In this document: piece after piece, positions 2,605 to 58,305 of the stretch
How positions within the stretch are numbered: position 1 is the stretch's first letter
Layout: each line of letters opens with the position of its first letter
Source: Thermovibrio ammonificans HB-1
Lineage (GTDB): Bacteria; Aquificota; Aquificia; Desulfurobacteriales; Desulfurobacteriaceae
Length of the DNA stretch: 64,000 nt
Direction of reading: 5' to 3'
Assembly: GCF_000185805.1 (NCBI RefSeq)
Contig: NC_014926.1
Coordinates: forward strand, 576,418-640,417
The notes under the pieces: generated by a model
Told to the model about the DNA's origin: nothing
The model's input: only the letters and a program-made list of their open reading frames with translations
Database searches by the model: none
Program-made: the position numbers and the translations under genes

Positions 2605-2609
2605 TCTTC

Positions 2610-3304: not shown

Positions 3305-4560
3305 AACTCCCTTGCAAGTAGGTCGCTGATAGTTTCCCTCTGGCGGATTACCCTTGTCGAGCTTCCCTCTACCAGTATCTCGGGAGGGCGGGGCCGTGAG
3401 TTGTAGTTAGAGGCCATTGTGAAGCCGTAGGCGCCTGCACTTAAAACGGCAAGAATGTCCCCTTCTGAGCACTCGGGAAGCTCTCTGCCCTTTGCGAGGA
3501 TATCTCCGGTTTCGCAGATGGGCCCCACAACGTCTACGGTTTCGGTCTTTCTGCCTTTATTCACCACCGGAACTATGTGGTGGTAGGCCCCGTAGAGTGC
3601 CGGCCTTGCAAGGTCGTTCATTCCGGCGTCTACTATGTAGAAGGTTTTGTTCGGCCTTCTCTTTATGTAGAGGAGCTTTGTAAGGAGCACTCCGGCGTTT
3701 GCCGATATTCTCCTTCCCGGCTCGAGTATCAGCTTACATCCGAGCTCTTTAACTGCCGGAATGAGCTGTTTAGCGAGCTCCTCTGATGGGACCGGAGGCT
3801 CCTGGGGGTTGTAGTTTACTCCCAGCCCTCCGCCTGCGTCGAAGAGCTCTACCTCTATTCCGAGGGAGTGGAGCTCCTTTACCAGCTCTGCAACTTTCTC
3901 GGCGGCTTCGCCGAAGGCGCTTGTGTCGGTAATCTGTGAGCCTATGTGGAAGTGTATCCCTACGGGGTTAACCCACTTCATCTCCTTTGCCTTTTTGTAA
4001 AGCTCAACCGCCCGCTCGTAGTCTACGCCGAACTTGGCCTCGTGGAGCCCTGTTGAGATGTAGGGGTGGGTTTTGGGGTCAACTTCCGGATTTACCCTCA
4101 GGGCAATCGGGGCCTTTTTGCCCAGCTTCTCCCCTACCCGGTTAACCGTTTCCAGCTCCGACTCCGATTCAACGTTTATCATCAGGATATCCCGCTCCAG
4201 GGCGAACTCTATCTCGTCGGGCCTCTTTCCGACGCCGGCAAACACTATTTTCTTCGGGCTGATGCCGGCCGTTAAAGCCCTGTGGATTTCTCCTGCCGAA
4301 ACCGTGTCTGCACCGGCTCCGAGCTCGGCAAGGAGCTTCAAAACCCAAACGTTGGAGTTGGCCTTTACCGCAAAGCAGGTTGTGTGCTCTACCTGAGAAA
4401 AGGCCGAGTTAAACTCGTTAAACCACCACCTGAAGGCGTTTGCGCTGTAAACGTAGGCGGGGGTTGAGAACTTCTCGGCGATTTCCAGGGCGGGAAGCTC
4501 CTCTATGTAGAGCTCTCCGTTTCTGAGCTCTATGAACGGGTAGAGGGTTTTCCTCTCCAT
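3301..4560 (-). CDS. lysA: Diaminopimelate decarboxylase
   Basis: A 419-residue PLP enzyme that performs the last step of lysine synthesis, meso-diaminopimelate to lysine. It is an alanine-racemase-fold type III enzyme: the PLP lysine is in CFAVKANSN (about residue 64), HIGSQI and the glycine-rich DAGGGLGVNY bind the cofactor phosphate, EPGRRISANAG is the family motif, and CETGDILAKGRELP carries the active-site cysteine from the partner subunit. Its ATG overlaps the stop of the AddB-like gene by one base (TAATG), so it is the last gene of a four-gene minus-strand operon (8472 down to 3301). Confidence 0.96.
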   Translation of the reverse strand: MERKTLYPFIELRNGELYIEELPALEIAEKFSTPAYVYSANAFRWWFNEFNSAFSQVEHTTCFAVKANSNVWVLKLLAELGAGADTVSAGEIHRALTAGISPKKIVFAGVGKRPDEIEFALERDILMINVESESELETVNRVGEKLGKKAPIALRVNPEVDPKTHPYISTGLHEAKFGVDYERAVELYKKAKEMKWVNPVGIHFHIGSQITDTSAFGEAAEKVAELVKELHSLGIEVELFDAGGGLGVNYNPQEPPVPSEELAKQLIPAVKELGCKLILEPGRRISANAGVLLTKLLYIKRRPNKTFYIVDAGMNDLARPALYGAYHHIVPVVNKGRKTETVDVVGPICETGDILAKGRELPECSEGDILAVLSAGAYGFTMASNYNSRPRPPEILVEGSSTRVIRQRETISDLLAREF

Positions 4561-7031
4561 TACTCTTCACCTCTCAGCAGTTTTTCTACTCTCTTGAGCT
4601 CTTCAAAGCTCAGCTGGAACCGCTCAAAACCTCTGCAGCAGTATGTGTTGAGTCCGATTCTTCCTCTCCTGAGCGTGAGCCTGTGGGGAACGAATATTCC
4701 GAGCTTCATCCCCCTTACCGCCGTTCTAACGAGCTTTTTTACCTTTTCAACCTCGCCTTTTGAGAGCTTCAGCCTGTTCCTCCAGCCGGCTTCGTAGCTG
4801 CGTGAAACGCTCACGAGCTCGAGCTCAAGGAGCTCAAGCTGCGGCTCCCAGCTTTCAAGCTCTCCGCAGCTTTTGGCCGCAGCGTAGAGGAGTAGCTGAA
4901 TGGCCTCCGAGTCGGTAACTCTAACCTTTACGCTCCCCCTTTTAAAGTCCACTATCTTCAGCTTTTCGGCCTCTACGATTAAATCGGCCCTCCCCCTGAT
5001 AACGGTGCCCTCAACCGTAACGGCGAGCTCCTCTTCATGCTTACCCTCTATGGGACCCGCCTTTTTTATGAAACGGCTGAAGTTCTTTTTAAGGGCCTCT
5101 TTGAGAATTTCGAGCTTCTTCTCGCCCGCCTTTAGCCGGCTAAACAGCCTCTCAAACTCTCGGTCGAACTCCTCCTCCCAGCTGTCACCCGCCGCTATGA
5201 GCCTGTGGTAGAGGGTGCCCTCGGCGCTGAAGATAGAGTCTTGGGTATCCGGCGTTAGGAAGAGCTCTATGAAGGCCTCGGTGGGGCACCTAAGGTAAGA
5301 GAGCAGCTGGGAAACGGTTATCTCTTTCAGCCGCTTCCGGAGGGCCTTTGAACCCTTAACCAGAAAGGCCCTCTCCGGCCCTTGGTCTTTCCAGCCGACA
5401 ATGCCCCTTTCCGGCTCCGTTTCCGGCTCTCTCTCCCCTTTGTAAACTCTGAAGGCGTTTACCGCCTCTCGGGTGGCAAATTCGGGGGCCTCTTTTGCCC
5501 CTGCGAACTCCCTGAGCAGGTAGGTGAAGAGCGACTCTCCCCTTCTTCTGTTTACCGTGGCGAAGAAGAGCTTCAGCGGCAGCGACAGTATGTTGTGGAA
5601 GGTTAAGAAGTCGTAAGCTATGAGGTTCTTCCTTGAGGGGAACGGCTGGTTGGAGAGGCCGCAGGCCTTGAGGAGCCGGTTAATCTGCTCCCTCTCGGCA
5701 TAGCTGAAGTCGGGGTCGTAGGGGAACGCCCTCGGGTATGAGCCTTCCGACAGGTCTATGAATATAACCGCTTCGGGGAAGAGGCTCACCGCCGACTCGG
5801 GGGAGCAGACGTGAACCCCGAAGGGGTCGTTGTCGTCGGTCATGTAGAACCTGTTCTGGAGGAGCTTTAGGAGCTCCTTCCTGGCCTGGGGGCCGTTCAG
5901 TCTGCGGTCGAGGAAGAGGCCCCTTTCCGAGAGCCCCTCTATCTCCCGCAGGAGCTTTAAGAGCTGTTTTTCAAGGTTGTCGCTCTTTCTGAAGGAGCGG
6001 CTCCAGAGCCTCCGTAGCCACTCTGTAAGCGGCAGGCTCTCCTCCGACTCCCTGATTTCGTGGAGAAACTCCTTTACAACGGCGGTGGAGGTTAGGGGGA
6101 GCCCTCGGGTTTGGAAGTTGAAGGGGATTTTAAACTGCTTGAAGAGGGAGTAGAGAACGGGTAGCAGCCGGTCTATCGAGTCTCCCACCACGGCTATCCT
6201 GTGGGGTTCTACTCCCCTCTCCAGTGCCAGCAGAACCCCTTCAACGGCGGCAACTGCGTGCTCGTTCTCGGTGTAAACGCTCTTTATGAGCACCTCTGTT
6301 TCGGACTTTGCCGGCTTTCGGTTTAAAGCCCGAGATAGGGAGTTGCCCTCAAGCTCCCTTACGTTTACGGAGTCTTTCAGGAACTCCTCCTGGAGTTTGC
6401 CCTGAAGCTCCCCTTCGGCCCTGTAGAAGTAGAGGGTGTGGGGACACTTTTTGAGGAAGGCCGTTTCCAGCGGAAACAGGAAAACGGGAGCTGCAACTTC
6501 CAGGGAGCTAAAGGGGAGCGGTGAGCTTTCGAGCCTCTCTGTGGCCTCTTTTAAGACTGTGAGGAAGCTCCTGCCCGTGAGCTCTTTTTGGAGCTCTTGA
6601 AACCTTTTAACCAGTTCAACGGTTTGGAGGAGCTTCTCTTTCAGCCTTGAGTCCTCTATCTGCTCTGCCGCCGAGAGAAGCTCCTCCTCGCCGGTTCCCG
6701 ACTGGAGAATTCCCCTTATCCTCTTGTCTATCAGCTGGGCCCGCCCGTAGCTACACTCTGCCTTCTCAACCTCTTCAACGATTCTCTTTACAAGGAGCGT
6801 TCTCTCTTGGTCTGAAAGGATTCTCCTCTTCTCAAGGTTCTCCTCGAGCACCTTCAGGGCGGCCCGCTGAAGCGTTCCCCCTATCTCCTTAAAAACGGGA
6901 GATTGAATCGACCTGAGGCACTCTACCTCGAAGAAGGTTGTAAACTGCCTTACGACTACAAAGGGGTTTTCGTTCCGCTCTATTTTTTGGGAGAGCTCTT
7001 CTACAAGCTCTTTTAGTCTCTTCCGGCTCAC
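4560..7031 (-). CDS. AddB-like PD-(D/E)XK nuclease protein
   Basis: An 823-residue protein whose C-terminal third is a RecB/AddB-type nuclease domain: LSYLRCPTEAF near residue 580, then GRADLIVEAEKLKIVDFKRG near 680-697 with the D...D-x-K catalytic pattern, and YCCRGF near 797. AddB nucleases hold an iron-sulfur cluster with one cysteine before and three after the nuclease core; only part of that cysteine set is visible here. The long N-terminal region looks like a helicase-type fold but shows no Walker A motif, as in other inactivated AddB-like partners. No AddA-like helicase is in the window. It starts with GTG overlapping the tyrA stop (GTGA). A role in recombinational end processing is inferred. 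Confidence 0.7.
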   Translation of the reverse strand: MSRKRLKELVEELSQKIERNENPFVVVRQFTTFFEVECLRSIQSPVFKEIGGTLQRAALKVLEENLEKRRILSDQERTLLVKRIVEEVEKAECSYGRAQLIDKRIRGILQSGTGEEELLSAAEQIEDSRLKEKLLQTVELVKRFQELQKELTGRSFLTVLKEATERLESSPLPFSSLEVAAPVFLFPLETAFLKKCPHTLYFYRAEGELQGKLQEEFLKDSVNVRELEGNSLSRALNRKPAKSETEVLIKSVYTENEHAVAAVEGVLLALERGVEPHRIAVVGDSIDRLLPVLYSLFKQFKIPFNFQTRGLPLTSTAVVKEFLHEIRESEESLPLTEWLRRLWSRSFRKSDNLEKQLLKLLREIEGLSERGLFLDRRLNGPQARKELLKLLQNRFYMTDDNDPFGVHVCSPESAVSLFPEAVIFIDLSEGSYPRAFPYDPDFSYAEREQINRLLKACGLSNQPFPSRKNLIAYDFLTFHNILSLPLKLFFATVNRRRGESLFTYLLREFAGAKEAPEFATREAVNAFRVYKGEREPETEPERGIVGWKDQGPERAFLVKGSKALRKRLKEITVSQLLSYLRCPTEAFIELFLTPDTQDSIFSAEGTLYHRLIAAGDSWEEEFDREFERLFSRLKAGEKKLEILKEALKKNFSRFIKKAGPIEGKHEEELAVTVEGTVIRGRADLIVEAEKLKIVDFKRGSVKVRVTDSEAIQLLLYAAAKSCGELESWEPQLELLELELVSVSRSYEAGWRNRLKLSKGEVEKVKKLVRTAVRGMKLGIFVPHRLTLRRGRIGLNTYCCRGFERFQLSFEELKRVEKLLRGEE

Positions 7032-7891
7032 TTTACCAGCTTCCTCTTCTCCCGTGCCTTTTCGAAGAACTCCTTGAGCCCTTCGCCGTTGCCCTCTTCT
7101 ATCAGCTTTTCCACCTTTTCAAGGGCCGATTTGAAGCTCTTTATTGAGTTGAGCAGGTTCTCCCTGTTGGCAAGGCAGATGTCTCTCCACATTATCGGGT
7201 CGCTCATCGCTATTCGGGTAAAGTCCCTGAAGCCCCCTCCGGTGAATTCAAAGAGGTTCGTATTCACCTGCTCGGAGAGGTCGTCTATTGCCGATACTAT
7301 AGAGTAGGCAACAACGTGGGGCAGGTGGCTTACCGCGGCAAAGACCCTGTCGTGGTGGTAGGGGGCCATCTCTATCACTTCCGAGCCCAGCTGCTTCCAG
7401 AGCCTTTTAACCTTCTCCAGGGCCTTTGGGTCTGTGTTCTCTGTGGGAGTCACTATGAACTTCGCCCCTACGAAAAGGTCGGGAACCGCCGACTCTACAC
7501 CCGACTTCTCGGTTCCCGCTATCGGATGGCCCCCAACGAAGGGGGCGGTGTCTGCCAGTAGCTCTTCGCACCTGTAAACGAGCTTCCCCTTTACGCTGCC
7601 GAGGTCTGAAACCACCTGAGAGCCGTTAAGGTGGGGCTTCAGCTGCTTTAAAACCGGCTCGTAGGCCCCTACGGGCGTTGCAAGGACAACAAGGTCGGCG
7701 CTTTCGGCCATTGAGTGTTTGATGCTGCCGGAGTCTATAACCTCCAGCTCCAGTCCCTTTTCGATGGCCTCCGGGTTTATATCTACCGCCGTTATCTTCC
7801 CTGGGAAGCCCTTCAGCCTCAGGTTTAGGGCGAAGGATCCCCCTATGAGGCCCAGGCCGATTATGCATATCTCTTTAAACTCCCACTCCAC
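7028..7891 (-). CDS. tyrA: Prephenate dehydrogenase
   Basis: A 287-residue NAD(P)-dependent enzyme of tyrosine synthesis that converts prephenate to 4-hydroxyphenylpyruvate. The N-terminal Rossmann fold has GLGLIGGSFALNL followed by an acidic residue at the end of the second strand (TAVDIN), which suggests NAD. HPIAGTEKSG is the family's catalytic and substrate region, and SHLPHVVAYS and GGGFRDFTRIA lie in the helical dimer domain. No chorismate mutase or ACT domain is fused. The start is GTG two bases after the stop of the aldolase gene, and the end overlaps the next gene by four bases, so it is translationally coupled on both sides. Confidence 0.93.
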   Translation of the reverse strand: MEWEFKEICIIGLGLIGGSFALNLRLKGFPGKITAVDINPEAIEKGLELEVIDSGSIKHSMAESADLVVLATPVGAYEPVLKQLKPHLNGSQVVSDLGSVKGKLVYRCEELLADTAPFVGGHPIAGTEKSGVESAVPDLFVGAKFIVTPTENTDPKALEKVKRLWKQLGSEVIEMAPYHHDRVFAAVSHLPHVVAYSIVSAIDDLSEQVNTNLFEFTGGGFRDFTRIAMSDPIMWRDICLANRENLLNSIKSFKSALEKVEKLIEEGNGEGLKEFFEKAREKRKLVK

Positions 7892-7893
7892 CG

Positions 7894-8472
7894 TTACACC
7901 CCTTTGAGCTGTGAGTAGGCGGCCAGAATTTTACAGGAATTCTCAAGGGCCGACAGGAACTTCAGGGCTTCTTCGGCGCTTCCTCCTACCGCAAAGGGGC
8001 CGTGACTCCAGATAACGGCAACCGGGTGCTCCTTCAGGAGTTTCGGAAGCTTGCGGGCAACCTCCTCCGACGATACCACCTTCTCCGCCTTTAGAACGGG
8101 AGCCTCTTTAATGAGGAGCCGGCCTTCGGAGTCTGCCGGCACTATCGTGTCGTAGAGCAGTGAGCACGCTACGGTGAAGGGGGCGTGGGCGTGGAGTATC
8201 GCCTTTACGTGGGGAAGCTCCCTGTAAATCGCCCTGTGGACTATGAGCTCCATCGATGCGTAGCGGTCGAGCCGGGGGTTCTCTTCAAGGGTTGTTACAA
8301 CGAAGTCCTCCGGTTTCAGGTAGCCCAGCATCTTTCCCGACTTCTTTATGAGTATGTAATCGCCGACCCTGCAGCTGATATTGCCCCCGTGGGTGTCTGT
8401 AAGGCCGGCTTCAAAGGTTATGCGCCCCACCCTGATGAGTTCCTCTCTTTCTCTTTTGAAGGGAAGCTCCAC
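7894..8472 (-). CDS. Class II aldolase/adducin family protein
   Basis: A 192-residue class II aldolase domain. It shows the N-terminal motif LTDTHGGNISCRVGD, a phosphate-site stretch KKSGKMLGYL, the zinc-binding HAHAPF and a later SHGPFAVGGS. Relatives include L-fuculose-phosphate aldolase and methylthioribulose-phosphate dehydratase; the sequence does not tell which substrate is used. The GTG start has a strong AGGAGGT ribosome site. It is the first gene of the operon with tyrA, the AddB-like gene and lysA. In some thermophiles such aldolases feed unusual routes to aromatic precursors, and the tyrA neighbour makes this thinkable, but it is only a suggestion. Confidence 0.8.
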   Translation of the reverse strand: MELPFKREREELIRVGRITFEAGLTDTHGGNISCRVGDYILIKKSGKMLGYLKPEDFVVTTLEENPRLDRYASMELIVHRAIYRELPHVKAILHAHAPFTVACSLLYDTIVPADSEGRLLIKEAPVLKAEKVVSSEEVARKLPKLLKEHPVAVIWSHGPFAVGGSAEEALKFLSALENSCKILAAYSQLKGV

Positions 8473-8495
8473 TTTTACCTCCTTACAAATGGTAA

Positions 8496-8517
8496 GGCCG
8501 CCCCTTGCGGGGCGGCC
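8496..8517 (-). terminator. Strong hairpin between the heme-sensor gene and the aldolase gene
   Basis: A perfect 9-bp GC stem (GGCCGCCCC at 8496-8504, GGGGCGGCC at 8509-8517) with a 4-base loop lies after the stop of the minus-strand sensor gene. The T-tract is poor in that direction, so it may act partly as an attenuator or 3' end stabiliser before the aldolase operon. Confidence 0.55.
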
Positions 8518-8544
8518 CAGAGAGTTTTTAAGTTAAAGTCGGCC

Positions 8545-9537
8545 TTACTTTTTCTTCCTCAGCCTCTCCATGGCTATCTGGATACTTGCCCTGAGCCTGT
8601 CGATTGCAATTGCCAGTTTGGTTATTTCGTCTTTAACCTCTTCCTCTTTGAGTCCCCTCACTCCCAGGTCAACGTCGAGCTTACCGAGGCTGATATCGTG
8701 GGCAGCCTTTGTAAGCTTCTCAATCGGCTTGATAATCTCGTTCTGTGCAAAGTACCAGAAGATGAGGAGCGCGAGTATGAGGGCTCCCACGTTCCACAGG
8801 TCTACTACGTCTGTAACCGTTGAGAGCATTCCGGCGGGGAGTATCGTTACGCTGATGATACCCCTGAGGTCGCCGACTTTGTAGCCCGTTGCCCTCTTAA
8901 CGGCCTCTTCGCCGTACTTGGCCACCATGGCCTTGTAGAGGACGGGGTCTATCTGGTCGGGGGTTCCGTGGCACTTCAGGCAGGACTTTTTAACGAAAAT
9001 CGCCCTTGCGTACCTGAAGGTGTCTCCGTCCCAGCCCCAGTACTCGGGGTGCTTACGGTCGCCGCTTTTAATCTTCTTCTCTATCTCCTTTATGGCCTTC
9101 TCTTCCCAGGGGTCGGGTTTGTCGGCCTTTGTCATGTACCTGTCGGAAACTACGTGGAAGCTCCAGCCGTACTCGATGTTGGAGAGGTTGGAAAGCTCCC
9201 TTGTTGCAAGGGCCGGGTTGTGAAGGTACATGTGGAAGGCGGGAATTGTTCCCAGGTTCTCCTCTCCTTGGTAGGCAAGGAGGTTCCCGCCGTTGCTCTT
9301 AATCTCGAGCAGGTAGCCTACGTCGGGTGAGTATTTGTCCTTCGTCCAAACTCCTCCGAAGCTTGCTGCCCACTTACGGAATATGAGGATTTCCTGGGCG
9401 ATGCTTCGGCCCTGGATTTTTAGGCTCTCGTCGTAGGTTTTGCTGAGCAGGTGGAAGAACGACAGCGTCGCCAGTATAACGACGATGCCGAATACTATGA
9501 AGACCTTCTGGGTCACGCTCAGGTTTTTAAGACTCAT
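8545..9537 (-). CDS. Membrane c-type heme sensor (Tll0287/DUF3365 type) with terminal HAMP-like region
   Basis: A 330-residue protein with an N-terminal membrane helix (about residues 11-31), a large extracytoplasmic domain, a second helix (about 243-262) and a HAMP-like cytoplasmic segment at the end. The external domain carries one heme c motif, C186-L-K-C189-H190, in the context expected of DUF3365/Tll0287-like sensor domains. Unlike many relatives it ends after the HAMP-like part, with no histidine kinase, methyl-accepting or cyclase output. It overlaps the upstream PATAN-domain gene by 11 bases, which suggests the two work together. It may sense redox state or a gas ligand; that is inference. 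Confidence 0.75.
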   Translation of the reverse strand: MSLKNLSVTQKVFIVFGIVVILATLSFFHLLSKTYDESLKIQGRSIAQEILIFRKWAASFGGVWTKDKYSPDVGYLLEIKSNGGNLLAYQGEENLGTIPAFHMYLHNPALATRELSNLSNIEYGWSFHVVSDRYMTKADKPDPWEEKAIKEIEKKIKSGDRKHPEYWGWDGDTFRYARAIFVKKSCLKCHGTPDQIDPVLYKAMVAKYGEEAVKRATGYKVGDLRGIISVTILPAGMLSTVTDVVDLWNVGALILALLIFWYFAQNEIIKPIEKLTKAAHDISLGKLDVDLGVRGLKEEEVKDEITKLAIAIDRLRASIQIAMERLRKKK

Positions 9538-10423
9538 TAGAACCTCCTCCTAGGATAAGGGTAATCATCTCCCTCAGCTTTTCCCTACAGCTCTCCCCCT
9601 CTACAAGACACGCTTCGGGTATCTTCTCTATGAGGTTCTCTATGAACTGGGGAACCATATCGGTTGTCAGCTGTGAAAGGTCCATATCCTCCAGGGTTTC
9701 GTCTATGAGGAACTCACCCATGGGGCCCATTGTTTCTATTAGAAGTTCCTTTATTTTATCCAGCTTATCCTGGCCGACAACCGGGCTTGCAGAGGGCTGG
9801 CTCTCCTGTACTGTTTGAACTTCGAGGTTTTGAGCACCCCTTTCTATCTCCTTTATGGCCCTGTTCTTCAGCAGGAACTCTATCTCCTGGGTGCCCTTGC
9901 CGAAGGACTCGCTCTTTGTGAGGAGCACTTCCCTCACGGGCGTTCCCTTCGAGAGGTAGGCGAGCATGTGCCAGGTGCCTTCGTCGAAGGTGATTGGGAG
10001 TTTGGCCTCTTCCGATAGGGTGAAGGACTTGTTCTCCTTTAGAACCTCCCTTACGGAGTCGGGAAGCTCGTCCTGCTCTTTGGTGAAGTCCATCATAACG
10101 TTTAGCGTGTCGGCACTCCCTATCCCCTCTGTCACCTCTTTCTCTACGAAGTTGAACTTACCCTGGTCCCACAGGGTTGTGTAGTGGAGTAGGAACTTGG
10201 CGGCTTCTGCAAGTGGGAGCTCGCCGGAGGTGACCCGCTCTTTTAAACGCTTAATAACGGGGACGTTGGAGTTGAAGTCTACGATTTTCCCGTCTTTGAA
10301 CCTGATGGTTATGCTCTCGCTGCCGCTCCGTAGGTTCACTTCTCCGGTTTTCTTCCCGAGGCTTATAATCTGCAGGAGGTCGAGAACCTCGGAGTAGGAA
10401 GTGAAGTCCCCTCTTAACTCCAT
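9527..10423 (-). CDS. DUF4388/PATAN-domain protein
   Basis: A 298-residue soluble protein. The N-terminus (LRGDFTSYSEVLDLLQIISL, KKTGEVNLRSG, IRFKDGKIVDF) matches the DUF4388 (PATAN) domain, which is common in signalling proteins of bacteria with gliding, twitching or phototaxis systems. The rest is helical and acidic without a domain I recognise, with a conserved-looking block near residues 220-290 (LLIETMGPMGEFLIDETLEDM). It has no receiver domain of its own. It precedes and overlaps the heme-sensor gene and could be the missing cytoplasmic partner of that sensor. The ATG lies 74 bases from the divergent gene at 10,498. Confidence 0.65.
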   Translation of the reverse strand: MELRGDFTSYSEVLDLLQIISLGKKTGEVNLRSGSESITIRFKDGKIVDFNSNVPVIKRLKERVTSGELPLAEAAKFLLHYTTLWDQGKFNFVEKEVTEGIGSADTLNVMMDFTKEQDELPDSVREVLKENKSFTLSEEAKLPITFDEGTWHMLAYLSKGTPVREVLLTKSESFGKGTQEIEFLLKNRAIKEIERGAQNLEVQTVQESQPSASPVVGQDKLDKIKELLIETMGPMGEFLIDETLEDMDLSQLTTDMVPQFIENLIEKIPEACLVEGESCREKLREMITLILGGGSNES

Positions 10424-10456
10424 AATGTCCTCGCGGGCTAAATAAATGTTTTATCG

Positions 10457-10462
10457 TATAAT
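10457..10462 (+). promoter_or_regulatory. Putative -10 element for the gene at 10,498
   Basis: A perfect TATAAT lies in the AT-rich gap between two divergent genes, 35 bases before the ATG. No convincing -35 element is seen at the usual distance. Confidence 0.4.
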
Positions 10463-10497
10463 GATGTTATCACAAAACCCTTGAGAGGGAAAGGAGT

Positions 10498-11175
10498 ATG
10501 GCTCTATCCATCAACCAGGATATTAAGGCAGGTAGCAGCGTTTACCACTTGCAAACCGAATACTACCAATCCTCCGGGAAGATAGTAACCAATATTTTTA
10601 AAGACGGTGCTGCCGTTAAAAGGCTGGAGAAGTCGGTCCCTTCCGACCTTACCGAGGAGGAGATTGACAAGGAGCTTCGCGACTTCCACAACTCCATAGT
10701 TGCCCGCCTTACCGGCGGCGGCAAGAAGGTTGAAACCAAGAGGGCCGGCTTTAAGCTTACCGACGAGGCTGTAGAGCGCATACTCCCGATACTTGCACCC
10801 TACTTTGGAATTGCCACGAGCTTCATAGTTGAGGAGACCGCCGCAGAGTCCCACTCCCTTGAGGAGTTTATAGATAAGCTGGTTGACGGCCTTGAGGAGT
10901 CCGAGGCCGAGTTTGTCAGGGGCGAGCTTAAACAGGCGCTTTCGGAGTTTGCAACCGGCTTTAAGCTCACGCCAGAGCTTGAGGATAAAATAGTTTCGAT
11001 TCTGGGAGAGGTCTTCGGGATAATGGCCTACCCCGTTTTTGAGGACTCCCTCTCTGAGTGGAGGGAGAAGGGTGGCAGCTCGTTTGAGGAGCTCGTTGAG
11101 GTGATTCTCTCCCATGCCCACGACGACGAAGAGAGGAGGGTGCTCAGGGAGAAGCTCTCTTCTCTTGAAGGTTAA
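10498..11175 (+). CDS. Uncharacterised protein with N-terminal YHLQTE-type domain
   Basis: A 225-residue protein of unknown function. The first 70 residues (SSVYHLQTEYYQSSGKIVTN, then LRDFHNSIVARL) resemble small uncharacterised bacterial proteins that begin with a YHVQTE motif and describe an antiparallel strand pattern. The rest contains two similar helical stretches (TDEAVERILPILAPYFGI and TPELEDKIVSILGEVFGI), which suggests an internal duplication. No membrane segment or signal peptide is present. It has a strong AAAGGAG ribosome site and its own -10 element, diverges from the PATAN/heme-sensor pair, and ends 4 bases into the convergent mqnA. No function is proposed. Confidence 0.6.
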   Translation: MALSINQDIKAGSSVYHLQTEYYQSSGKIVTNIFKDGAAVKRLEKSVPSDLTEEEIDKELRDFHNSIVARLTGGGKKVETKRAGFKLTDEAVERILPILAPYFGIATSFIVEETAAESHSLEEFIDKLVDGLEESEAEFVRGELKQALSEFATGFKLTPELEDKIVSILGEVFGIMAYPVFEDSLSEWREKGGSSFEELVEVILSHAHDDEERRVLREKLSSLEG

Positions 11176-11978
11176 ACCTCTATGAACTCCGGTTTAAGGG
11201 GAAGTTCGAGCTTCTTGGCAAAGAGCTTCAGCGACTCTATCTCCTGCTCACCCAGGTGGAAGTTCAAAAACTCCAAGTACTTCTCACACAGCCTCTCGGG
11301 CAGTCCAAGTCTGCCCGAGAACTCCTTGCAGATTTGGGTGAAGCTCTTGAGTCCGATCTCCCTGGACTCCAAGAGGAGCTTGTAGAACCGCTCCACCTCT
11401 TTCCTCTTCTCCCTGTAGCTGTCGCGCCGAACCGCCCAAACGGCAAATACGAAGGGCAGTCCGGTAACGTTGTACCACTCCTCTGCAAGGTCGTAGGTGA
11501 ACTGGAACCTTTTGCTCCTAAGGAGCTTCAGGGCATCGTCCCCTATTGCGAGCAGTGCTTTGGCGTTTTTGGGTAGGTCTTCTTCTTTCATAGAGTAGTA
11601 GTGGAAGTTGGGCTCAACCCCGTAAACGTTTTTCAGCAGGTATTTAAGGAGCTCCCGGGAGGTCATTGAGCTCCTCGTTATCCACACATCCTTCCTGTGG
11701 AGCTGGTGGATGGGCAGGGTAGAGAGGAACAGAACGCTTATAACCTTCTTCCTTGCGGATATAGAGAGGTCGGGAAGGAGCAGGTATTTATCCTGGTTTA
11801 CTATGTACTCGTAGGAAGAGATTACCGAAAGGTCCAGGAAGCCCTCTCTCATCAGCCGGTTCAGCTCCGACGGAACGTCCTCTACAAACTCAACTCCTTC
11901 GGCCTTCACTCTACCTGTGAGGAAGCCGTAGTAAACGGGAACCGTGTTTAGGTACTCTATCTTCCCTACCTTCAGCAT
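11172..11978 (-). CDS. mqnA: Chorismate dehydratase, menaquinone synthesis (futalosine route)
   Basis: A 268-residue protein of the periplasmic-binding-protein-like VitK2 family. The N-terminus KVGKIEYLNTVPVYYGF is the MqnA hallmark, followed by DVPSELNRLMREGFLDLSVISSYEY and a lobe with ALLAIGDDALKLL and WYNVTGLPFVFAVWAVRRD. MqnA converts chorismate to 3-enolpyruvyl-benzoate, the first step of futalosine-dependent menaquinone synthesis, so the host likely makes menaquinone for anaerobic respiration. The ATG lies inside the end of the upstream ttuA gene (7-base overlap), making this the last gene of the ileS-radC-rfaE1-ttuA-mqnA string. Confidence 0.88.
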   Translation of the reverse strand: MLKVGKIEYLNTVPVYYGFLTGRVKAEGVEFVEDVPSELNRLMREGFLDLSVISSYEYIVNQDKYLLLPDLSISARKKVISVLFLSTLPIHQLHRKDVWITRSSMTSRELLKYLLKNVYGVEPNFHYYSMKEEDLPKNAKALLAIGDDALKLLRSKRFQFTYDLAEEWYNVTGLPFVFAVWAVRRDSYREKRKEVERFYKLLLESREIGLKSFTQICKEFSGRLGLPERLCEKYLEFLNFHLGEQEIESLKLFAKKLELPLKPEFIEV

Positions 11979-12901
11979 CTCTCCCTTAACCTCTCCAGGG
12001 CTTTACATACGGCACAGACCGGCGCCGTTGTCGGCATGCCGCACACCTGGCACTCGTTCAGCTGAAGCTCCCTTTTAACCTCCCGCTCGAAGAGCGGACG
12101 GGCCTTCTTCAAGAACTCCTTGTAAAACCTGAGCTTCGTTCCCGGCATCTCGTGCTCTATGAGGGCAAGGGCCCTTTTGAAAGTTGCAGAGGTCGCCTCT
12201 TTGGCGTTCGGGCAGCCGCTCTTTAAAAACTCGATGTTGTTCACAATCGCGTAGCTTACGGTTTCCTTCTCGGTTAAAAAGCAGAAAGGTTTTACCTTCC
12301 TTGCAAACCCGCCCTCCTCCGGCAGAACGGGAGCCTGCCTTCCCAGGTAACCTATCTCCCACCTTATGGTGTTTGACAGCAGCAGTGCCGACTCGTCGTC
12401 GAGGTTGTGGCCGGTGGCAACTACCTTAAAGCCGTGCTCCCTTGCCACCTTGTTCATCAGGTAGCGCTTAAAGGTTCCGCACACAGAACAGACGTCTCTC
12501 CTGCCGGTTCCCTTCGCTATCTCCTCTATTGTGTACCCGAACTCCTCCTTTAGGTCAAAAACTATCAGCGGCCTGCCGATTCTCTCAGAGAGCTTCCTGC
12601 ACATCTCCAGTGAGCGCTCCGAGTAATCCCACCCCTTTATCCCCAGGGAAACGTGGAAGCCGTAGGTCTCGTAGCCGAGCCTGTGGAGGGCGAACCAGAG
12701 GGATAGGCTGTCCTTCCCTCCCGAAACCGCCACGAGGACCTTCTCCCTCTTTGAGAACATCTTGAACTTCTTTATGGTCTTCTCAGTCTGCCTCTCGAAC
12801 CACTCTACAAAGTGCTCCTTACACAGGGCGAGCCTGTGGTGCCTTATGAAAATAACGGCCTTCTTTCGCTCTCCCTTACTTTTGCAGATTCTGCACAGCA
12901 T
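11972..12901 (-). CDS. ttuA: tRNA-5-methyluridine(54) 2-sulfurtransferase, TtuA type
   Basis: A 309-residue PP-loop ATPase of the TtcA/TtuA family. The N-terminal zinc finger (CRICKSKGER ... LCKEHF) precedes the PP-loop VLVAVSGGKDSLS (about residues 55-67). Internal cysteines (DVCSVCGTFKR and the SGCPNA loop) can hold the iron-sulfur cluster, and the C-terminal finger is CQVCGMPTTAPVCAVCKAL. Two zinc fingers flanking the PP-loop domain mark TtuA, which thiolates ribothymidine 54 and stabilises tRNA at high temperature; TtcA lacks this layout. It is strong evidence for a thermophilic host. The start lies inside the end of rfaE1. Confidence 0.82.
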   Translation of the reverse strand: MLCRICKSKGERKKAVIFIRHHRLALCKEHFVEWFERQTEKTIKKFKMFSKREKVLVAVSGGKDSLSLWFALHRLGYETYGFHVSLGIKGWDYSERSLEMCRKLSERIGRPLIVFDLKEEFGYTIEEIAKGTGRRDVCSVCGTFKRYLMNKVAREHGFKVVATGHNLDDESALLLSNTIRWEIGYLGRQAPVLPEEGGFARKVKPFCFLTEKETVSYAIVNNIEFLKSGCPNAKEATSATFKRALALIEHEMPGTKLRFYKEFLKKARPLFEREVKRELQLNECQVCGMPTTAPVCAVCKALERLRERC

Positions 12902-13853
12902 TTGCCGCCTCTTCTATCTCCTCTACGGTTACCGTAGCTGTTCCCAGCTTCCCTACAACAACTCCGGCCGCCAGGTTTGCGATTTCCGCAGCCTCAAAGA
13001 GCGTTGCACCCGACGCAACGGAGAGGGCAAATGCGCTTATAACCGTGTCGCCGGCTCCCGTTACGTCAAATACCTGTCTTGCCCTTGTGGGAATGTGGTA
13101 GGCCTCACTTTCAGTAATTATAGAGATTCCCTTTTCACTCCTTGTTATCACGGCGTAGTCGAGCTTGTAGCGCTCTATGAGTAACTTTCCGGCCCTTTGG
13201 GCCTCTTCGGCGGTTTCCGGTTTAATCCCTACCGCCTGGTAGGTCTCCTTTATGTTCGGCGTCATGGTTGTTATGTCTTTGTAGATGTGGAAGTTCTTCT
13301 CCTTAGGGTCGAGGAAAACGGGCACTTCCCTCTTAATTTTCCCCGTAAGCTTAAAGAGCCCCTCGGTTATCACCCCCTTGCCGTAGTCGGATATGATAAC
13401 TGCGCTGAAGTTCCTGTAGTTCTCCAGTAGGAACTTTAAGAGCTTCTCCTCTACCTGTCTGCTAAGGTAGTCCCGGCTCTCCCAGTCTACCCTGAGCAGC
13501 TGTTGGGAGCCCGCAATTATCCGGGTTTTCCTCGTTGTGGGCCTTGAGGGGTCTGTAATCAGCCCTTCGGTGTCGGCTCCCAGCCGTTTGAGCATAGTTT
13601 TTAGCCGTTCGCCGGCCTGGTCTTCACCGACAACTCCCAGGGCCACAACTTCGCTGCCGAGGGCTCTCAGGTTTGCCACTACGTTCGCCGCGCCGCCGGG
13701 CCTGAAGGTTACCTCTTTCGCCTCTACTATGGGAACGGGGGCTTCGGGCGATATCCGCTCCACCTTCCCCGTGATGTACTCGTCGAGCATAAAGTCGCCT
13801 ATTACGAGGACCTTCTGCTCTTTGAACTTTTTTAGAATCTCCCTGTTAAACAA
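12876..13853 (-). CDS. rfaE1: D-glycero-beta-D-manno-heptose-7-phosphate kinase
   Basis: A 325-residue PfkB-family sugar kinase corresponding to the kinase half of HldE/RfaE. The N-terminus has VLVIGDFMLDEYITG, RISPEAPVPIVE and RPGGAANVVANL; the C-terminal ATP and catalytic motif is VTGAGDTVISAFAL with the catalytic aspartate. It phosphorylates heptose 7-phosphate at C1 on the way to ADP-heptose for LPS core, so the cell has a Gram-negative outer membrane. The cytidylyltransferase half is absent and must be encoded elsewhere. The start is TTG within the end of radC, and the 3' end overlaps ttuA by 26 bases. Confidence 0.9.
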   Translation of the reverse strand: MFNREILKKFKEQKVLVIGDFMLDEYITGKVERISPEAPVPIVEAKEVTFRPGGAANVVANLRALGSEVVALGVVGEDQAGERLKTMLKRLGADTEGLITDPSRPTTRKTRIIAGSQQLLRVDWESRDYLSRQVEEKLLKFLLENYRNFSAVIISDYGKGVITEGLFKLTGKIKREVPVFLDPKEKNFHIYKDITTMTPNIKETYQAVGIKPETAEEAQRAGKLLIERYKLDYAVITRSEKGISIITESEAYHIPTRARQVFDVTGAGDTVISAFALSVASGATLFEAAEIANLAAGVVVGKLGTATVTVEEIEEAANAVQNLQK

Positions 13854-52381: not shown

Positions 52382-52434
52382 GGCTCACCCCACCGGTTTG
52401 TTGAAATTCTAACACTACAGGTATTAATTTATAC

Positions 52435-52454
52435 TGAACTGACACGTCAGTTCA
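52435..52454 (+). promoter_or_regulatory. TetR-type operator, 9-bp perfect inverted repeat
   Basis: TGAACTGAC (52,435-52,443) and GTCAGTTCA (52,446-52,454) form a perfect inverted repeat with a two-base centre. It overlaps the last base of a TATACT -10 element (52,430-52,435) and ends just before the TetR gene start. This is the expected placement for an autorepressing TetR operator that also controls the coupled downstream activase gene. Confidence 0.8.
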
Positions 52455-52463
52455 GAGGTGGCC

Positions 52464-53030
52464 GTGAGGAAGCGGGAGAGGGAGCTTCTCCTTGCAGCTA
52501 AAACGCTCTTTTCGAGGCGGGGCTTTTACGACACAACTGTAAGCGATATCGTTGAGAGCCTCGGTATAGCCCGGGGGACTTTCTACCAGTACTTCAAGAA
52601 TAAAGACGACATCTACAGAAGGGTTCTTGAGCAGGTTGTTGAGGAGCTTTCGAGCAGGCTGAAGCTTGTCTCTCCCGACGACCCTTTTGCCCAGCTGAGG
52701 GAGAACTTGAAGGGTGTTCTGGAGCTAATGGTTGAAGACAGAGACCTTGCCCGGCTCGTTTTCTACCACCCTTACAAGCTGAACCCCCGGTTCGACGCTG
52801 TCCTTGAGGAGTTCTTCCTCAAGGTTTACGCCCTTGTGGAGCACGCCGTAAAAACGGGTATGGAGATGGGGGTTGTTAGGCGTTGCAATCCGGAGATTGT
52901 TGCCCGGGCAATTGTGGGGGCGTTTATGGAGGTGGGGAAGCTCCTTATAGAGCAGGAGTCTCCCGATATTGAAGGAGCTGTTGATGAGCTTCTCGCCATA
53001 GGCAGAGCAGGCCTTCTGGAGGAGAGATGA
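52464..53030 (+). CDS. TetR-family transcriptional repressor
   Basis: A 188-residue TetR regulator. The helix-turn-helix spans ELLLAAKTLFSRRGFYDTTV, SDIVESLGIARGTFYQYFKNK; the C-terminal domain is helical and lacks known ligand signatures. Two in-frame GTG codons could start it (52,458 and 52,464); the second leaves room for the AGAGGTGG ribosome site. A perfect palindrome overlaps the promoter upstream. It ends four bases into the 1067-residue activase gene, so it most likely represses its own operon and is released by a metabolite linked to that enzyme. The ligand is unknown. Confidence 0.9.
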   Translation: MRKRERELLLAAKTLFSRRGFYDTTVSDIVESLGIARGTFYQYFKNKDDIYRRVLEQVVEELSSRLKLVSPDDPFAQLRENLKGVLELMVEDRDLARLVFYHPYKLNPRFDAVLEEFFLKVYALVEHAVKTGMEMGVVRRCNPEIVARAIVGAFMEVGKLLIEQESPDIEGAVDELLAIGRAGLLEER

Positions 53031-56000
53031 TAAGAGCGGGTATAGACGTAGGCTCAACCACCGTTAAGGGCGTTCTCTTAGACGACAGCGGAAACGTCCT
53101 TTTTAAGAGTTACAAGAGGCACGAGGCCCGTCAGAGTGAGAGGGTCCTTGAGCTCCTTGAGAAGTTTGAGGAGCTTGCCGGGGGCGAGTTCCACCTTTTC
53201 ATGACGGGCAGCGGCGGCGCCGACATAGCAAAGGCCTTGGGGGTAAAGTTCGTTCAGGAGGTTAACGCGGTAAGCCTTGCCGTGGAAACCCTCCACCCCG
53301 ACGTTAACTCGGTAGTTGAGCTGGGCGGCCAGGACGCCAAGATGATTTTCTGGCTTGAGTCGGGGGGGAAGCGCCGAAAGGTAACCACTATGAACGACAA
53401 GTGTGCCGGCGGCACGGGGGCCACGATAGACCGAATAGTGAACAAGCTGAAGCTCCCCTTAGAGGTTGCCACTTCCATAGAGTTCGACCCCGATAAGGTT
53501 CACCCGGTTGCCGCAAAGTGCGGCGTTTTTGCAGAGACCGACATAAACTCCCTCCAGAAGGCCGGCGTTCCGTCGGACGAGCTCCTCATATCGCTCTTTA
53601 ACGCCATAGTGGTTCAGAACCTTGCCGTTCTTACAAGGGGTTACACCCTAAGGCCCAAGGTTCTGCTCCTCGGCGGGCCCAACACCTTCTTCCCGGCCCT
53701 TGTGGGGGCGTGGCGCTACCACCTTGAGAGGATGTGGCAGGAGAAGGGGATAGAGTTTGACTCAGATTCCATACTGCTGCCGAAGCTCTCACAGTTCTAT
53801 GCCGCCTTCGGCGCTGCCCTCTACGGCTCTTACGAGGAGAGCCCCTACAAGGGTAAAGAGGGGCTTGTCACCTTCAGGGCGGTTTACCTGAAGGAGATGA
53901 AGAGGAAGACCGGCGAGAGGGGGCTTTTAAAGCCGGGCGAGAGCCTCCGGGAGTTTAAGGAGCGCTATGCCGTTAAGCCTTTTAAACCCAAAACCTTTAA
54001 GCCGGGCGAGAAGGTCAGGGCTTTCCTGGGAATAGACGGCGGTTCAACCTCTACCAAGGCCGTTCTCATAGACGAAAGGGGAGAGCTCATAGCCACCGCC
54101 TACACCCTCTCTAAGGGTAACCCCTTGGCCGACGTTAAGGAGATTGTAGGGCAACTGAAGGAGAGCGTTGAGGGGCAGGGAGCGACTTTAGAGGTGCTCT
54201 CCGTTGGGGTTACCGGCTACGCCAAGGAGATGCTTAAAGAGACGATAGGGGCAGACGTTGCCGTTGTGGAGACCGTTGCCCACACCGTTTCCGCTCAGCA
54301 CTTTTTCTCCGATATCGACGTTATAGTAGACGTTGGCGGTCAGGATATTAAGGTTATGATGCTCCGAAACGGGGAGGTAAAGGACTTTAAGCTCAATACC
54401 CAGTGTTCTGCAGGTAACGGCTACTTCCTCCAGTCTACCGCCGAGAAGTTCGGCTACAGGGTAGAGGAGTTTGCAGATGTCGCCTTTAGGGCCGAGTTTG
54501 CCCCAAGGTTCAACTTCGGCTGTGCCGTTTTCCTTGAACAGGATATAGTCAACTTCCAGAGGCTCGGCTGGGAGCCCCACGAGATTATGGCCGGCCTTGC
54601 TAAAGTGCTCCCCAAGAACATCTGGCTCTACGTTGTTAAGGAGCCGAACCTGAGAAAGCTCGGGCGGCGTTTCCTGTTACAGGGAGGCACTCAGAAGAAC
54701 CTTGCGGCAGTTAAAGCCCAGTACGATTTCATAAAGGAAAGGGTCCCCGACGCCGAAGTTTTCGTCCACCCCATAACGGGTGAGGCGGGAGCCTTCGGGG
54801 CCGCCGTTTTGGCCATGAGAAACTACACCGGTTCAACCCGCTTCGTAGGTGTAGATAGGCTCCTCTCTATGGAGTTTACCGTTAAGAGCGATGAAACGAC
54901 CCGCTGCCACTTCTGTACCAATAGGTGCCAGAGGACCTTCATAACCGTTTCAACCTCTTCCGGCGAGAGAACCTACATAATTGCTCCCTGTGAGAAGGGG
55001 ACGGCTCTGGACCTTGAAGGGGTCAAGTCGGTTCTCGGGAGGCTGAAGCAGGTAGAGCAGGAGAACCCCAACCTCCAGGAGTACGCCGCGAAGAGGGTGT
55101 TTGAGAGCTTCCCGGTGGAAAGAGTTTACCAGCGGAAGCTCTTTGGCCTTGTGCCGAGAACGGGCGTTATAGAGAAGCGGAGGAGCTTGAAAGTTGGCAT
55201 CCCCAGGGTTTTGAACTTCTACGCCCTTGCCCCCTTCTTCAGGGGTTACCTTGAGGCCCTCGGGGTTGAGAAGTTCATCTTCTCGGACTACACCAGCGAG
55301 AAGCTAGTCAGGGAGGAGCTCAGGGGCGGGGCCATAGACCCGTGCTTCCCCAGTAAAGTGGCCCTTGCCCACGTTAGGAACCTCTTGAAGAAGTCCCCCG
55401 ACGTTATCCTCTTTCCAAAGGTGGCAACGCTGAAGAGCCTCTTCAAAGACGCCGAAGGCTCTCACGCCTGCCCCACCGTAACGGCAACTCCCATATCGGT
55501 AAAGTCGGTTCTTACAAAGGAAGAGGACATCTTCAAGGAGAAGGGGATAACCTTCTTAGACCCGCTCCTTCACTTCGACGACGAGGAGCTTTTGAAGTGG
55601 GAGATGTTCGAGGCCTTTAAAGAGCTTTTGAACCTTACCCGGAAAGAGAGCGACAGGGCCGTTGACGAGGGGTTCAAGGCCCTTGATAGCTACTACCGGG
55701 AGCTTCGCTCCCTGGGGGAGAAAATCCTCAGAAAAGTGGAGGCTGAGGGCCGTATTGCCATACTTGTTTTGGGAAGGCCCTACCACAACGACCCCGGCAT
55801 AAACCACGGCATTACCAAGGAGCTTCAGAAGCTCGGCTACCCGATACTCACCATAGACTCCCTTCCCCTTAAAGAGGAGTTCTTGAAGAAGGTTTTTAAA
55901 GGCCAAGACCCCTTTAAGATTCGCCACGTTTGGAAGAAGGCCTACAGCGAGAACAGCAGCAGGAAGGTGTGGGCCGCCCTTTACGGTGCCAACCACCCGA

Positions 56001-56230
56001 ACTTGGCCCTCCTGGACCTCTCCTCCTTCAGGTGCGGCCACGATGCCCCCATCTACTCCGTTATAGAGGAGATAGTGGAGAAAACGGGTACTCCTTACTT
56101 TACCTTCCACGAGATAGACGAGAACAGGCCCGCCGGCTCCATAAAGATTAGGGTTGAGACCATAGACTACTTCCTGAAGGAGAGAATGGCGAAAGAGTTT
56201 GGCACTTTGAAGGAGGAGGTGGCGGTTTAG
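53027..56230 (+). CDS. Fused double-domain 2-hydroxyacyl-CoA dehydratase activase (HgdC/BcrA-like plus DUF2229)
   Basis: A 1067-residue ATP-dependent reductase-type protein. Two ASKHA activator domains are fused: the first begins GIDVGSTTVKGVLLDD and has a cysteine pair C126 (NDKCAGGTG) and C165 (AAKCGVFAE); the second begins near residue 337 (GIDGGSTSTKAVLIDE) with C460 and C499. Both pairs are 39 residues apart, matching the spacing of the two cysteines that hold the bridging [4Fe-4S] cluster in HgdC. A Cys627-x2-Cys630-x3-Cys634 cluster leads into a DUF2229/HgdB-like part with further cysteines (DPCFPSK, HACPTV, FRCGHD). It should drive electrons to very low potential. No dehydratase subunits lie nearby and the substrate is unknown. 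Confidence 0.87.
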   Translation: MIRAGIDVGSTTVKGVLLDDSGNVLFKSYKRHEARQSERVLELLEKFEELAGGEFHLFMTGSGGADIAKALGVKFVQEVNAVSLAVETLHPDVNSVVELGGQDAKMIFWLESGGKRRKVTTMNDKCAGGTGATIDRIVNKLKLPLEVATSIEFDPDKVHPVAAKCGVFAETDINSLQKAGVPSDELLISLFNAIVVQNLAVLTRGYTLRPKVLLLGGPNTFFPALVGAWRYHLERMWQEKGIEFDSDSILLPKLSQFYAAFGAALYGSYEESPYKGKEGLVTFRAVYLKEMKRKTGERGLLKPGESLREFKERYAVKPFKPKTFKPGEKVRAFLGIDGGSTSTKAVLIDERGELIATAYTLSKGNPLADVKEIVGQLKESVEGQGATLEVLSVGVTGYAKEMLKETIGADVAVVETVAHTVSAQHFFSDIDVIVDVGGQDIKVMMLRNGEVKDFKLNTQCSAGNGYFLQSTAEKFGYRVEEFADVAFRAEFAPRFNFGCAVFLEQDIVNFQRLGWEPHEIMAGLAKVLPKNIWLYVVKEPNLRKLGRRFLLQGGTQKNLAAVKAQYDFIKERVPDAEVFVHPITGEAGAFGAAVLAMRNYTGSTRFVGVDRLLSMEFTVKSDETTRCHFCTNRCQRTFITVSTSSGERTYIIAPCEKGTALDLEGVKSVLGRLKQVEQENPNLQEYAAKRVFESFPVERVYQRKLFGLVPRTGVIEKRRSLKVGIPRVLNFYALAPFFRGYLEALGVEKFIFSDYTSEKLVREELRGGAIDPCFPSKVALAHVRNLLKKSPDVILFPKVATLKSLFKDAEGSHACPTVTATPISVKSVLTKEEDIFKEKGITFLDPLLHFDDEELLKWEMFEAFKELLNLTRKESDRAVDEGFKALDSYYRELRSLGEKILRKVEAEGRIAILVLGRPYHNDPGINHGITKELQKLGYPILTIDSLPLKEEFLKKVFKGQDPFKIRHVWKKAYSENSSRKVWAALYGANHPNLALLDLSSFRCGHDAPIYSVIEEIVEKTGTPYFTFHEIDENRPAGSIKIRVETIDYFLKERMAKEFGTLKEEVAV

Positions 56231-56337: not shown

Positions 56338-58305
56338 ATGGAGGGTATGGATACAGAGCTTCACTCAGAAATTCTCTCCTTCTTTGAAGACCACTGTAAA
56401 CGCTACACCGAGTCGCTTTCGGAGATACTCAGGAAGCACATAGGTATAAACGGCAACACCGACGCTTTCTGCCGCTCGCTTATACCAAAGGTCAGCCGGC
56501 TCCTTGAACTCTTCCTCTCCGGCCAAGACGACGCCTTTAAAAGCGAGGCCGTTGAGCTCGGCAGGAGGATATTCCGGAAGAACCTTCCCGTTTCCGTTGT
56601 TGTGAACGCCTTTAACTCCCTGCTCTTTGACTCCATAGACTTCGCCTCAAGGAGCACCTTCTCGGAGGAGTTCTCCCTCTTCCTCGCCTTTGTAAGGAAA
56701 GTTACAAACTACGTTGCCCTGGGCTTTATCTACGAGTCTGTATCTGCCAAGGAGCGCTTCTTCCTTAGGGAGTCGGTGAGCCGCTCCTCGGTCAGAACGA
56801 TGTTCCAGCTCTTCCTGCGGATAAGGAAGGTGCTCTACGGAGAGGGGGATACCATAACAGAGCGGAACTGCCCCCTCTCTCAGCTGTTTGACACCTTGGA
56901 GTTTCGGCTGGTTTCCTCTAAACACGGAATAAGGCGGCAGCTTGAGCTCCTCCACGAGGCGGTTCACACCCACGAAAACCTGTTTAAGGAGTACTTCAAA
57001 AGGGGGAACTACCTCTCGGCCTACCTTACACTCGTTAACTTCTACCACACCCTTGAGAAGCTCATCCACCTGTTCGTTCAGATAGAGAGGGGTAAGAACG
57101 CCGTCAGGCTCGAGGATATAGTCAACTTCCTTGCCTCCGAAAAGGGGCCCTTTGTCCTCTTCGCCCTTGACCCTAAGCACCTGTCGAGCATCAACAGGGC
57201 CCTCGGCTACAACGTAGGCGACGAGATATTCCGCTACATAGACTCGGCCCTTCAGGCCAAGTTTCAGGGAAGCTCTTACGCCGTTTTCCGCTGCTTCCAC
57301 AGCGCCGTGTGCGTTCTCGTTGAGGGGAAGTTAAGCGGCATAGATTTTGAAGGTCTCTTTAAGCGCATCAGGCTCAAACTCAAAAGGAGGTTCAGGGAGC
57401 TTCCAACCGACGTAGACATCTCTGGCTTTTTGATAAAGGTTCCCCAGGAGCTCTCGGGAGACAAAGACGCCATATCGAGCGCCGTCAGGCTCGCCATTAG
57501 GGAGAGTAAGCGCAGGGTGGGGGAGCTGTTCACCCTCGACCTCTCCTCCGAGGAGGAGAAGAGGGAGGTAATCATCCTTAAAAACCTCTACAAGGGAATT
57601 GTAGAGAGCCTTGTGCTCGAAAGGGTTGGTATAGCCCTTCAGGGCATCTACTCCCCCGACGGCAAAGTTGAACACTGGGAGGCCCTTGTAAGGTTCAAGG
57701 ACGACGAGGGCAACATAGTGCCCGCCTACAAGTTCATAGACCTCCTCTACGACTACAACCTGATAGACCGGCTCGACATACTGGTTCTTAAAAAGGTTCA
57801 ACAGAACGTCCACCTGTTTAAGGGGAAGTCCATCTTCTTCAACCTCAGTCCCGTTACCCTTACGGGTAAGCGTTCGGGCTCGCAGCTGAGGGAGCTTACC
57901 CGCTCCCTTGTTGAGAGCGGCCTCGGCCTGAACTTCGGTTTTGAGATAACGGAGCAGGCCGCCCTCGAGGCCTTCCTCCCGATAGTCGATTTCTTCAGGG
58001 AGTTTAACCTCCCCCTTGCCATAGACGACTTCGGAAACGGTTACTCCTCCTTCTCAAAGTTCATAGACCTGGTTGAGCTCGTGCCGGTGAAATACCTGAA
58101 GATAGACGGCAGTTACGTTAAAAGGCTCACAACTTCCGATAAGGCCGTAAAGGTTGTAAGAACCATAGTCAGTATGGCGAACTCCCTGGGAATAAAAACG
58201 ATAGCCGAGTTTGTGGAGAGTGAGGAGATATTCAAGTTGCTGAAGGAGATGGGGGTTGAGCTCTTTCAGGGTTACTACTTCGGCAAGCCCCAGCTCGTTG
58301 TGTAA
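56338..58305 (+). CDS. EAL-domain c-di-GMP phosphodiesterase with degenerate GGDEF domain
   Basis: A 655-residue cytoplasmic protein in three parts. Residues 1-230 are helical and unrecognised, a possible sensor. Residues about 255-400 have a GGDEF-like fold (FALDPKHLSSINRALGYNVG, DEIFRYI), but the active-site GGDEF loop is replaced by RCFHSAV, so it cannot make c-di-GMP. The EAL domain (about 420-655) keeps EALVRF, NLSP, FEITEQAALEA, AIDDFGNGYSSFSKF, KIDGSYV and FQGYYFGKP, so it should hydrolyse c-di-GMP. ATG 56,347 is a possible alternative start. It has its own promoter and no membrane segment. Confidence 0.9.
   Translation: MEGMDTELHSEILSFFEDHCKRYTESLSEILRKHIGINGNTDAFCRSLIPKVSRLLELFLSGQDDAFKSEAVELGRRIFRKNLPVSVVVNAFNSLLFDSIDFASRSTFSEEFSLFLAFVRKVTNYVALGFIYESVSAKERFFLRESVSRSSVRTMFQLFLRIRKVLYGEGDTITERNCPLSQLFDTLEFRLVSSKHGIRRQLELLHEAVHTHENLFKEYFKRGNYLSAYLTLVNFYHTLEKLIHLFVQIERGKNAVRLEDIVNFLASEKGPFVLFALDPKHLSSINRALGYNVGDEIFRYIDSALQAKFQGSSYAVFRCFHSAVCVLVEGKLSGIDFEGLFKRIRLKLKRRFRELPTDVDISGFLIKVPQELSGDKDAISSAVRLAIRESKRRVGELFTLDLSSEEEKREVIILKNLYKGIVESLVLERVGIALQGIYSPDGKVEHWEALVRFKDDEGNIVPAYKFIDLLYDYNLIDRLDILVLKKVQQNVHLFKGKSIFFNLSPVTLTGKRSGSQLRELTRSLVESGLGLNFGFEITEQAALEAFLPIVDFFREFNLPLAIDDFGNGYSSFSKFIDLVELVPVKYLKIDGSYVKRLTTSDKAVKVVRTIVSMANSLGIKTIAEFVESEEIFKLLKEMGVELFQGYYFGKPQLVV

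Follow-up and report, generated by a model that had tools for sequence, protein, structure and literature searches.

In this work we analysed a gene lying in a 64,000 bp window of the chromosome of Thermovibrio ammonificans HB-1 (contig NC_014926.1, positions 576,418 to 640,417) against the genome of this strain, which comprises 1,759,526 bases in two contigs (1,682,965 and 76,561). The gene occupies positions 53027..56230 of the window on the forward strand and is an ATG-initiated open reading frame encoding a chain of 1067 residues, which Pfam searches and alignments assign to a putative PlsA/Ger-type architecture of two activase domains followed by a DUF2229 part. The PF01869 family (BadF/BadG/BcrA/BcrD activase) is found twice in the chain (whole-protein E 2e-81); the best stretch spans residues 334-596, within the second activase domain (residues 333-598; 54023..54820, forward strand), and the other covers the N-terminal ~270 residues, within the first domain (residues 1-285; 53027..53881, forward strand). 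Each domain carries a pair of cysteines spaced by 39 residues, C126/C165 and C460/C499, which are invariant in 15 out of 15 aligned sequences, in agreement with the original prediction of two HgdC-like domains with such pairs. Also as predicted, a profile search places PF09989 (DUF2229) in the same chain at residues 722-946 (E 4.3e-51), as the first portion of a DUF2229 and C-terminal part, the presumed reductase-1 (residues 722-1055; 55190..56191, forward strand), in which C773 and C815 are invariant and C1003 is nearly so. Between the second activase domain and this part lies a cysteine cluster, C627-x2-C630-x3-C634...C655 (54890..55006, forward strand), invariant in the same 15 sequences. 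The AlphaFold2 model of the chain (pLDDT 78) has low-confidence spots around C627-C655, a pattern that a cofactor site would be expected to give. As first proposed, such a fusion of a double activase with a cysteine-rich DUF2229 part is most likely an ATP-driven low-potential iron-sulfur reductase.

Comparison of this model with solved structures using Foldseek gave template modelling (TM) scores, normalised to target length, of up to 0.86 against activases, with 0.83 to 1hux and 0.81-0.85 to 4eht/4ehu; every match listed for the full chain was an activase or other ASKHA-type fold, so that the search is silent on the C-terminal half. The activase fold and the one cysteine pair per domain are shared with the HgdC/HadI activators, and TIGR00241 is the sole NCBIfam model above its cut-off for the chain. 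The TIGR00241 match would fit an activator for a 2-hydroxyacyl-CoA dehydratase or benzoyl-CoA reductase of the conventional type whose dehydratase had been overlooked. Unlike HgdC/HadI, the Thermovibrio chain contains the activase twice and joins it to DUF2229, and no HgdA/HgdB protein lies over cut-off in the genome. The benzoyl-CoA reductase equivalogs were missed by a wide margin (135 bits against a cut-off of 578 for BcrA, subunit A, 85 against 380 for BzdQ, and 74 against 313 for BcrD), and the host is a chemolithoautotroph (PMC3570795), all of which makes this explanation extremely improbable. The methanogenesis-marker models of NCBIfam were also far under their cut-offs, and no PlsA, Ger or PlsR model was among the matches. 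A conventional dehydratase partner was also sought directly and rejected, as a PF06050 search of the genome yielded nothing over cut-off and a PlsR query found a partner instead. The HgdB-like part that had been proposed for the chain was not recovered: Pfam did not detect PF06050 in it, and when the C-terminal part was compared by profile with HgdB and DCCP proteins, the match was weak (E 0.034, probability 1.5%).

Full-length homologues came from a protein-level search of annotated plasmid-collection records; they belong to Listeria, Collinsella, Acetoanaerobium, Haliovirga, and Fusobacterium and share 31-32% identity over 98-99% of the chain, with E values down to 1e-160. The Pfam composition of the Fusobacterium PlsA homologue (975 residues) is identical to that of the Thermovibrio chain, with two PF01869 domains and DUF2229, and its gene is directly followed by a second gene for 404 residues; in Listeria, Collinsella, and Haliovirga the PlsA and second parts are fused into proteins of 1449-1479 residues. 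According to the literature, Clostridium perfringens has plsA-plsR, and Enterococcus and Lactococcus each have one gene in which the two are fused (PMC12838417). As these split and fused gene layouts match, the family appears to be of the plasmalogen synthase type, and the Thermovibrio chain has the same domain order and a PlsR partner as in the known PlsA-PlsR systems (CPE1195-1194 of C. perfringens, EF1327 of Enterococcus), with 31-32% whole-chain identity to PlsA of Fusobacterium and Listeria. Viral contigs were searched as well and held no relatives of the chain. Also PlsA-like and with two PF01869 domains, as in the Thermovibrio chain, is Ger, known as Tmari_0479 in Thermotoga maritima (PMC8788747) and SHJ90043 in Desulfatibacillum alkenivorans, which in anaerobic E. 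coli converts sn-1 and, slightly, sn-2 esters to saturated alkyl ethers (PMC11150832, PMC13274423). Its hosts are anaerobes and thermophiles which make alkyl ethers and not plasmalogens (PMC8788747, PMC13274423). By the account of the authors of the Ger work, sequence does not currently suffice to distinguish Ger from PlsA (PMC13274423, PMC11868695).

The partner was found on the same chromosome 175 kb from the large gene, at 453918-455339 on the minus strand (L059:7919-9340), and encodes a PlsR-like protein of 474 residues. It was detected in the genome with a Fusobacterium PlsR query (E 4e-19) and with a four-sequence PlsR profile (E 9.6e-42), and profile-profile comparison of PlsR with same-type partner proteins from other phyla gave a probability of 99.9 (E 1e-32, 402 columns). 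The gene directly follows miaA and an Hfq-like gene (both named from our own reading of the sequences), and precedes and overlaps an NFACT gene. The protein has no match in Pfam or NCBIfam, and no likeness between PlsR-like and DUF2229/C-terminal parts was detectable by profile comparison. The phrase "without its dehydratase" in the original prediction thus holds for the surroundings of the large gene, near which there is none, and fails for the genome, which holds this PlsR-type partner.

The proposed survey of gene neighbours across the Aquificota showed that the two genes occur together: of 136 genomes, 68 carried both, 62 neither, five the large gene alone, and one the partner alone (Fisher p 2e-31, in a test which ignores shared ancestry). 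Most of the six discordant genomes are fragmentary or show a short, marginal match, and the genomes lacking both genes are spread across several genera. In Aquifex aeolicus the order on one strand is tetR, double activase, DUF2229 part, and PlsR-like part. The DUF2229/C-terminal part is a separate gene in Aquifex and in other Aquificaceae-type genomes, and in the latter the activase gene stands next to the PlsR-like gene, mostly with a third gene for the DUF2229 part. Large and PlsR-like genes are also neighbours on contigs labelled Nitrospirae, Chloroflexi, and "bacterium", and a single reading frame holds both on contigs L045 (1859 residues) and L047 (1747 residues). This fusion and adjacency in relatives provide strong evidence that the large chain and the PlsR-like protein function jointly. 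In one Aquificota genome (G002:C132:10901-11400) stop codons interrupt the activase gene and no PlsR-like gene was found, which looks like joint loss. It should also be noted that the L045 contig (1662-7238) is labelled "Euryarchaeota archaeon ARS43" and that its fused chain is of bacterial type, shares 54% identity with the Thermovibrio protein, and groups with Chloroflexota in the tree, so that the contig is either mis-binned or from an archaeon that has an ester-to-ether enzyme. L047, a Dehalococcoidia contig, carries tandem copies (1976-7216 and 8001-13776), one fused with a PlsR-like part and one split.

The existence of this partner, fused or adjacent in relatives, bears directly on the earlier view of a free-standing double-cubane reductase of the DCCP type acting on a small molecule. 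The first activase domain is related to the ATP-driven DCCP-R (7yyl, E 1.9e-16), and a poor model of the PlsR-like protein (pLDDT 61), without any significant Foldseek match, bears a weak resemblance to DCCP that is below significance. Profile comparisons of the C-terminal part and of the PlsR-like proteins with HgdB/DCCP gave E values of 0.02-0.03. Unlike in DCCP, the Thermovibrio partner is PlsR-like and no PF06050-type reductase lies over cut-off in the chain or in the genome. We therefore regard a small-molecule reductase of this type as very unlikely; neither its free-standing nature nor its double-cubane character is retained, and a membrane glycerolipid ester is better supported as substrate than a small molecule. 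The preferred explanation is that the large gene probably encodes the activase and reductase-1 chain of an ester reductase of the PlsA/Ger family, which would be ATP-driven, consist of two components, and act on glycerolipids.

Upstream of the large gene, and sharing with it the 4 bp ATGA as the overlap in the original prediction required, lies a gene for a TetR-family regulator of 190 residues (52458..53030, forward strand; PF00440 DNA-binding domain over cut-off, E 8.4e-16; PF17932, E 3.6e-8), the probable autorepressor of the operon. The top library match of this protein is the equivalog model NF053878 of FadR, a fatty-acid regulator of the TetR type, but its score of 56.6 bits is far from the cut-off (200), so that it does not count as a FadR. 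Two bases ahead of its start codon ends a 22 bp palindrome with perfect 10-bp arms, CTGAACTGAC-AC-GTCAGTTCAG (52434..52455), the probable TetR operator, which occurs only once in the genome even when up to three mismatches are allowed. A local TetR with a single operator agrees with the private control that had been predicted, and the protein looks autoregulatory. TetR orthologues beside the same gene have 53-63% identity in close and 31-40% in distant relatives. The palindrome core precedes tetR or the large gene in all TetR-bearing near relatives and in Aquificaceae-type, Nitrospirota, and other contigs, a conservation that extends to other phyla. Those relatives inspected that lack TetR lack the core as well, and on contig L045 a related TetR occurs with no such motif. 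At several loci from other Desulfurobacteriaceae genera and relatives (L013, L014, L015, L016, L019, L021-L024) the large gene is kept with no adjacent TetR orthologue, and the operator is likewise absent in those that were inspected. As TetR and operator are missing in several relatives, control of the gene appears to change between genera. In E. faecalis and further facultative anaerobes pls is reported to have a tetR gene directly upstream, which strict anaerobes are said to lack (PMC9702350); the adjoining gene in Thermovibrio is as in the former, and T. ammonificans, a strict anaerobe and chemolithoautotroph (PMC3570795), is an exception to the latter. In Collinsella the TetR gene is found directly downstream of the fused gene. 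A gene downstream of the large gene (56338-58305) codes for an EAL domain (E 2e-46) together with a weakly matching GGDEF domain that is probably degenerate, and has no obvious relation to the chain.

The lipids on record for the phylum bear on the product. Ether lipids are documented in A. aeolicus (PMC3917532), whose genome has both the large-gene type and the PlsR-like genes; straight-chain alkyl monoethers are described in Hydrogenobacter thermophilus (PMC3111988), and dialkyl diethers are attributed to A. aeolicus, A. pyrophilus, and Thermocrinis ruber (Huber 1992 and Jahnke 2001, as cited in PMC4339782). Since gene-bearing Aquificota hold alkyl ethers, the Ger reading is favoured over PlsA, and the product is more likely an alkyl than a vinyl ether. 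Among the genomes surveyed, both genes are present in those which we take to be H. thermophilus TK-6, T. albus, and T. ruber, while the presumed Hydrogenobaculum Y04AAS1 genome has neither. A plasmalogen synthase proper, PlsA with PlsR making an sn-1 vinyl ether and not a saturated alkyl ether, would account for the aligned homologues of Fusobacterium, Listeria, and Collinsella being of the PlsA/PlsR kind, and the inseparability of PlsA and Ger by sequence alone (PMC13274423, PMC11868695) leaves room for it. The ethers recorded in Aquificota are, however, saturated or unsaturated-chain alkyl ethers, none described as plasmalogens in the literature consulted (PMC3111988, PMC4339782), so that a plasmalogen synthase is in our view unlikely. 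Unlike in PlsA-PlsR, the Thermovibrio partner lies at a distance and the chain sits on a long tree branch.

Several observations weigh against assignment to a Ger-like ester reductase. In the close relatives within the Desulfurobacteriaceae the partner gene is far from the large gene and without operator, and no operator was found near the PlsR-like gene at 13 loci; the possibility of a matching partner operon elsewhere in the genome with a co-regulated operator, raised with the original prediction, is thus borne out as to the partner gene and not as to the operator, of which no copy lies there. The Thermovibrio-type clade is joined to the PlsA clade by a very long branch, the comparison set consisted of PlsA proteins, and the structural matches cover the activase part of the chain. 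The fatty acids and polar lipids of T. ammonificans itself are stated as not known (PMC3570795). Because of the long branch and the composition of the comparison set, "PlsA/Ger family system" is a firmer sequence-based claim than "Ger". The long branch and the unlinked partner would also fit a distinct branch of the family, partnered by the PlsR-like protein, whose substrate is different (a CoA ester or a lipid of another class), and Ger2, a close paralogue in D. alkenivorans, yielded no ether lipids in E. coli (PMC11150832). Set against this are the two-component make-up, the fusions, and the TetR neighbour, as in pls, and the presence of both genes in Aquificota with known ether lipids, and we consider it rather improbable. 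A more specific and similarly doubtful form would make the Aquificota/Nitrospirota/Chloroflexota clade a separate PlsA/Ger branch with its own substrate or product (e.g., both ester positions or another lipid class), under its own lipid- or redox-sensing TetR, for which CTGAC-N2-GTCAG would be the conserved operator.

For the ester reductase which we favour, a mechanism may be proposed, in part from knowledge of the family, in which the clusters, the catalysis, the product, and the TetR ligand are inferred. Each activase domain would give one cysteine pair, the two jointly holding one [4Fe-4S] cluster between two ATP sites, and ATP hydrolysis would push low-potential electrons to iron-sulfur sites of the reductase parts, i.e., the DUF2229/C-terminal region of the chain and the separate PlsR-like protein. 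There an acyl ester of a diacyl phospholipid would be reduced with loss of water to leave an ether-linked chain, more likely saturated alkyl as with Ger. TetR would bind the palindrome at its own promoter and tune expression of the chain, perhaps sensing acyl chains, membrane state, or redox.

With this assignment a supposed orphan reductase would leave the list of unknowns. The Aquificota are a deep-branching thermophilic phylum, and we found no gene in the literature assigned to their formation of alkyl glycerol ethers. The two genes, the way in which they are present or missing jointly throughout the phylum, and the compact tetR-act-red1-red2 operon of A. aeolicus offer a testable candidate for the origin of the Aquificota ether lipids, and the conserved operator suggests that ether-lipid content may be regulated.

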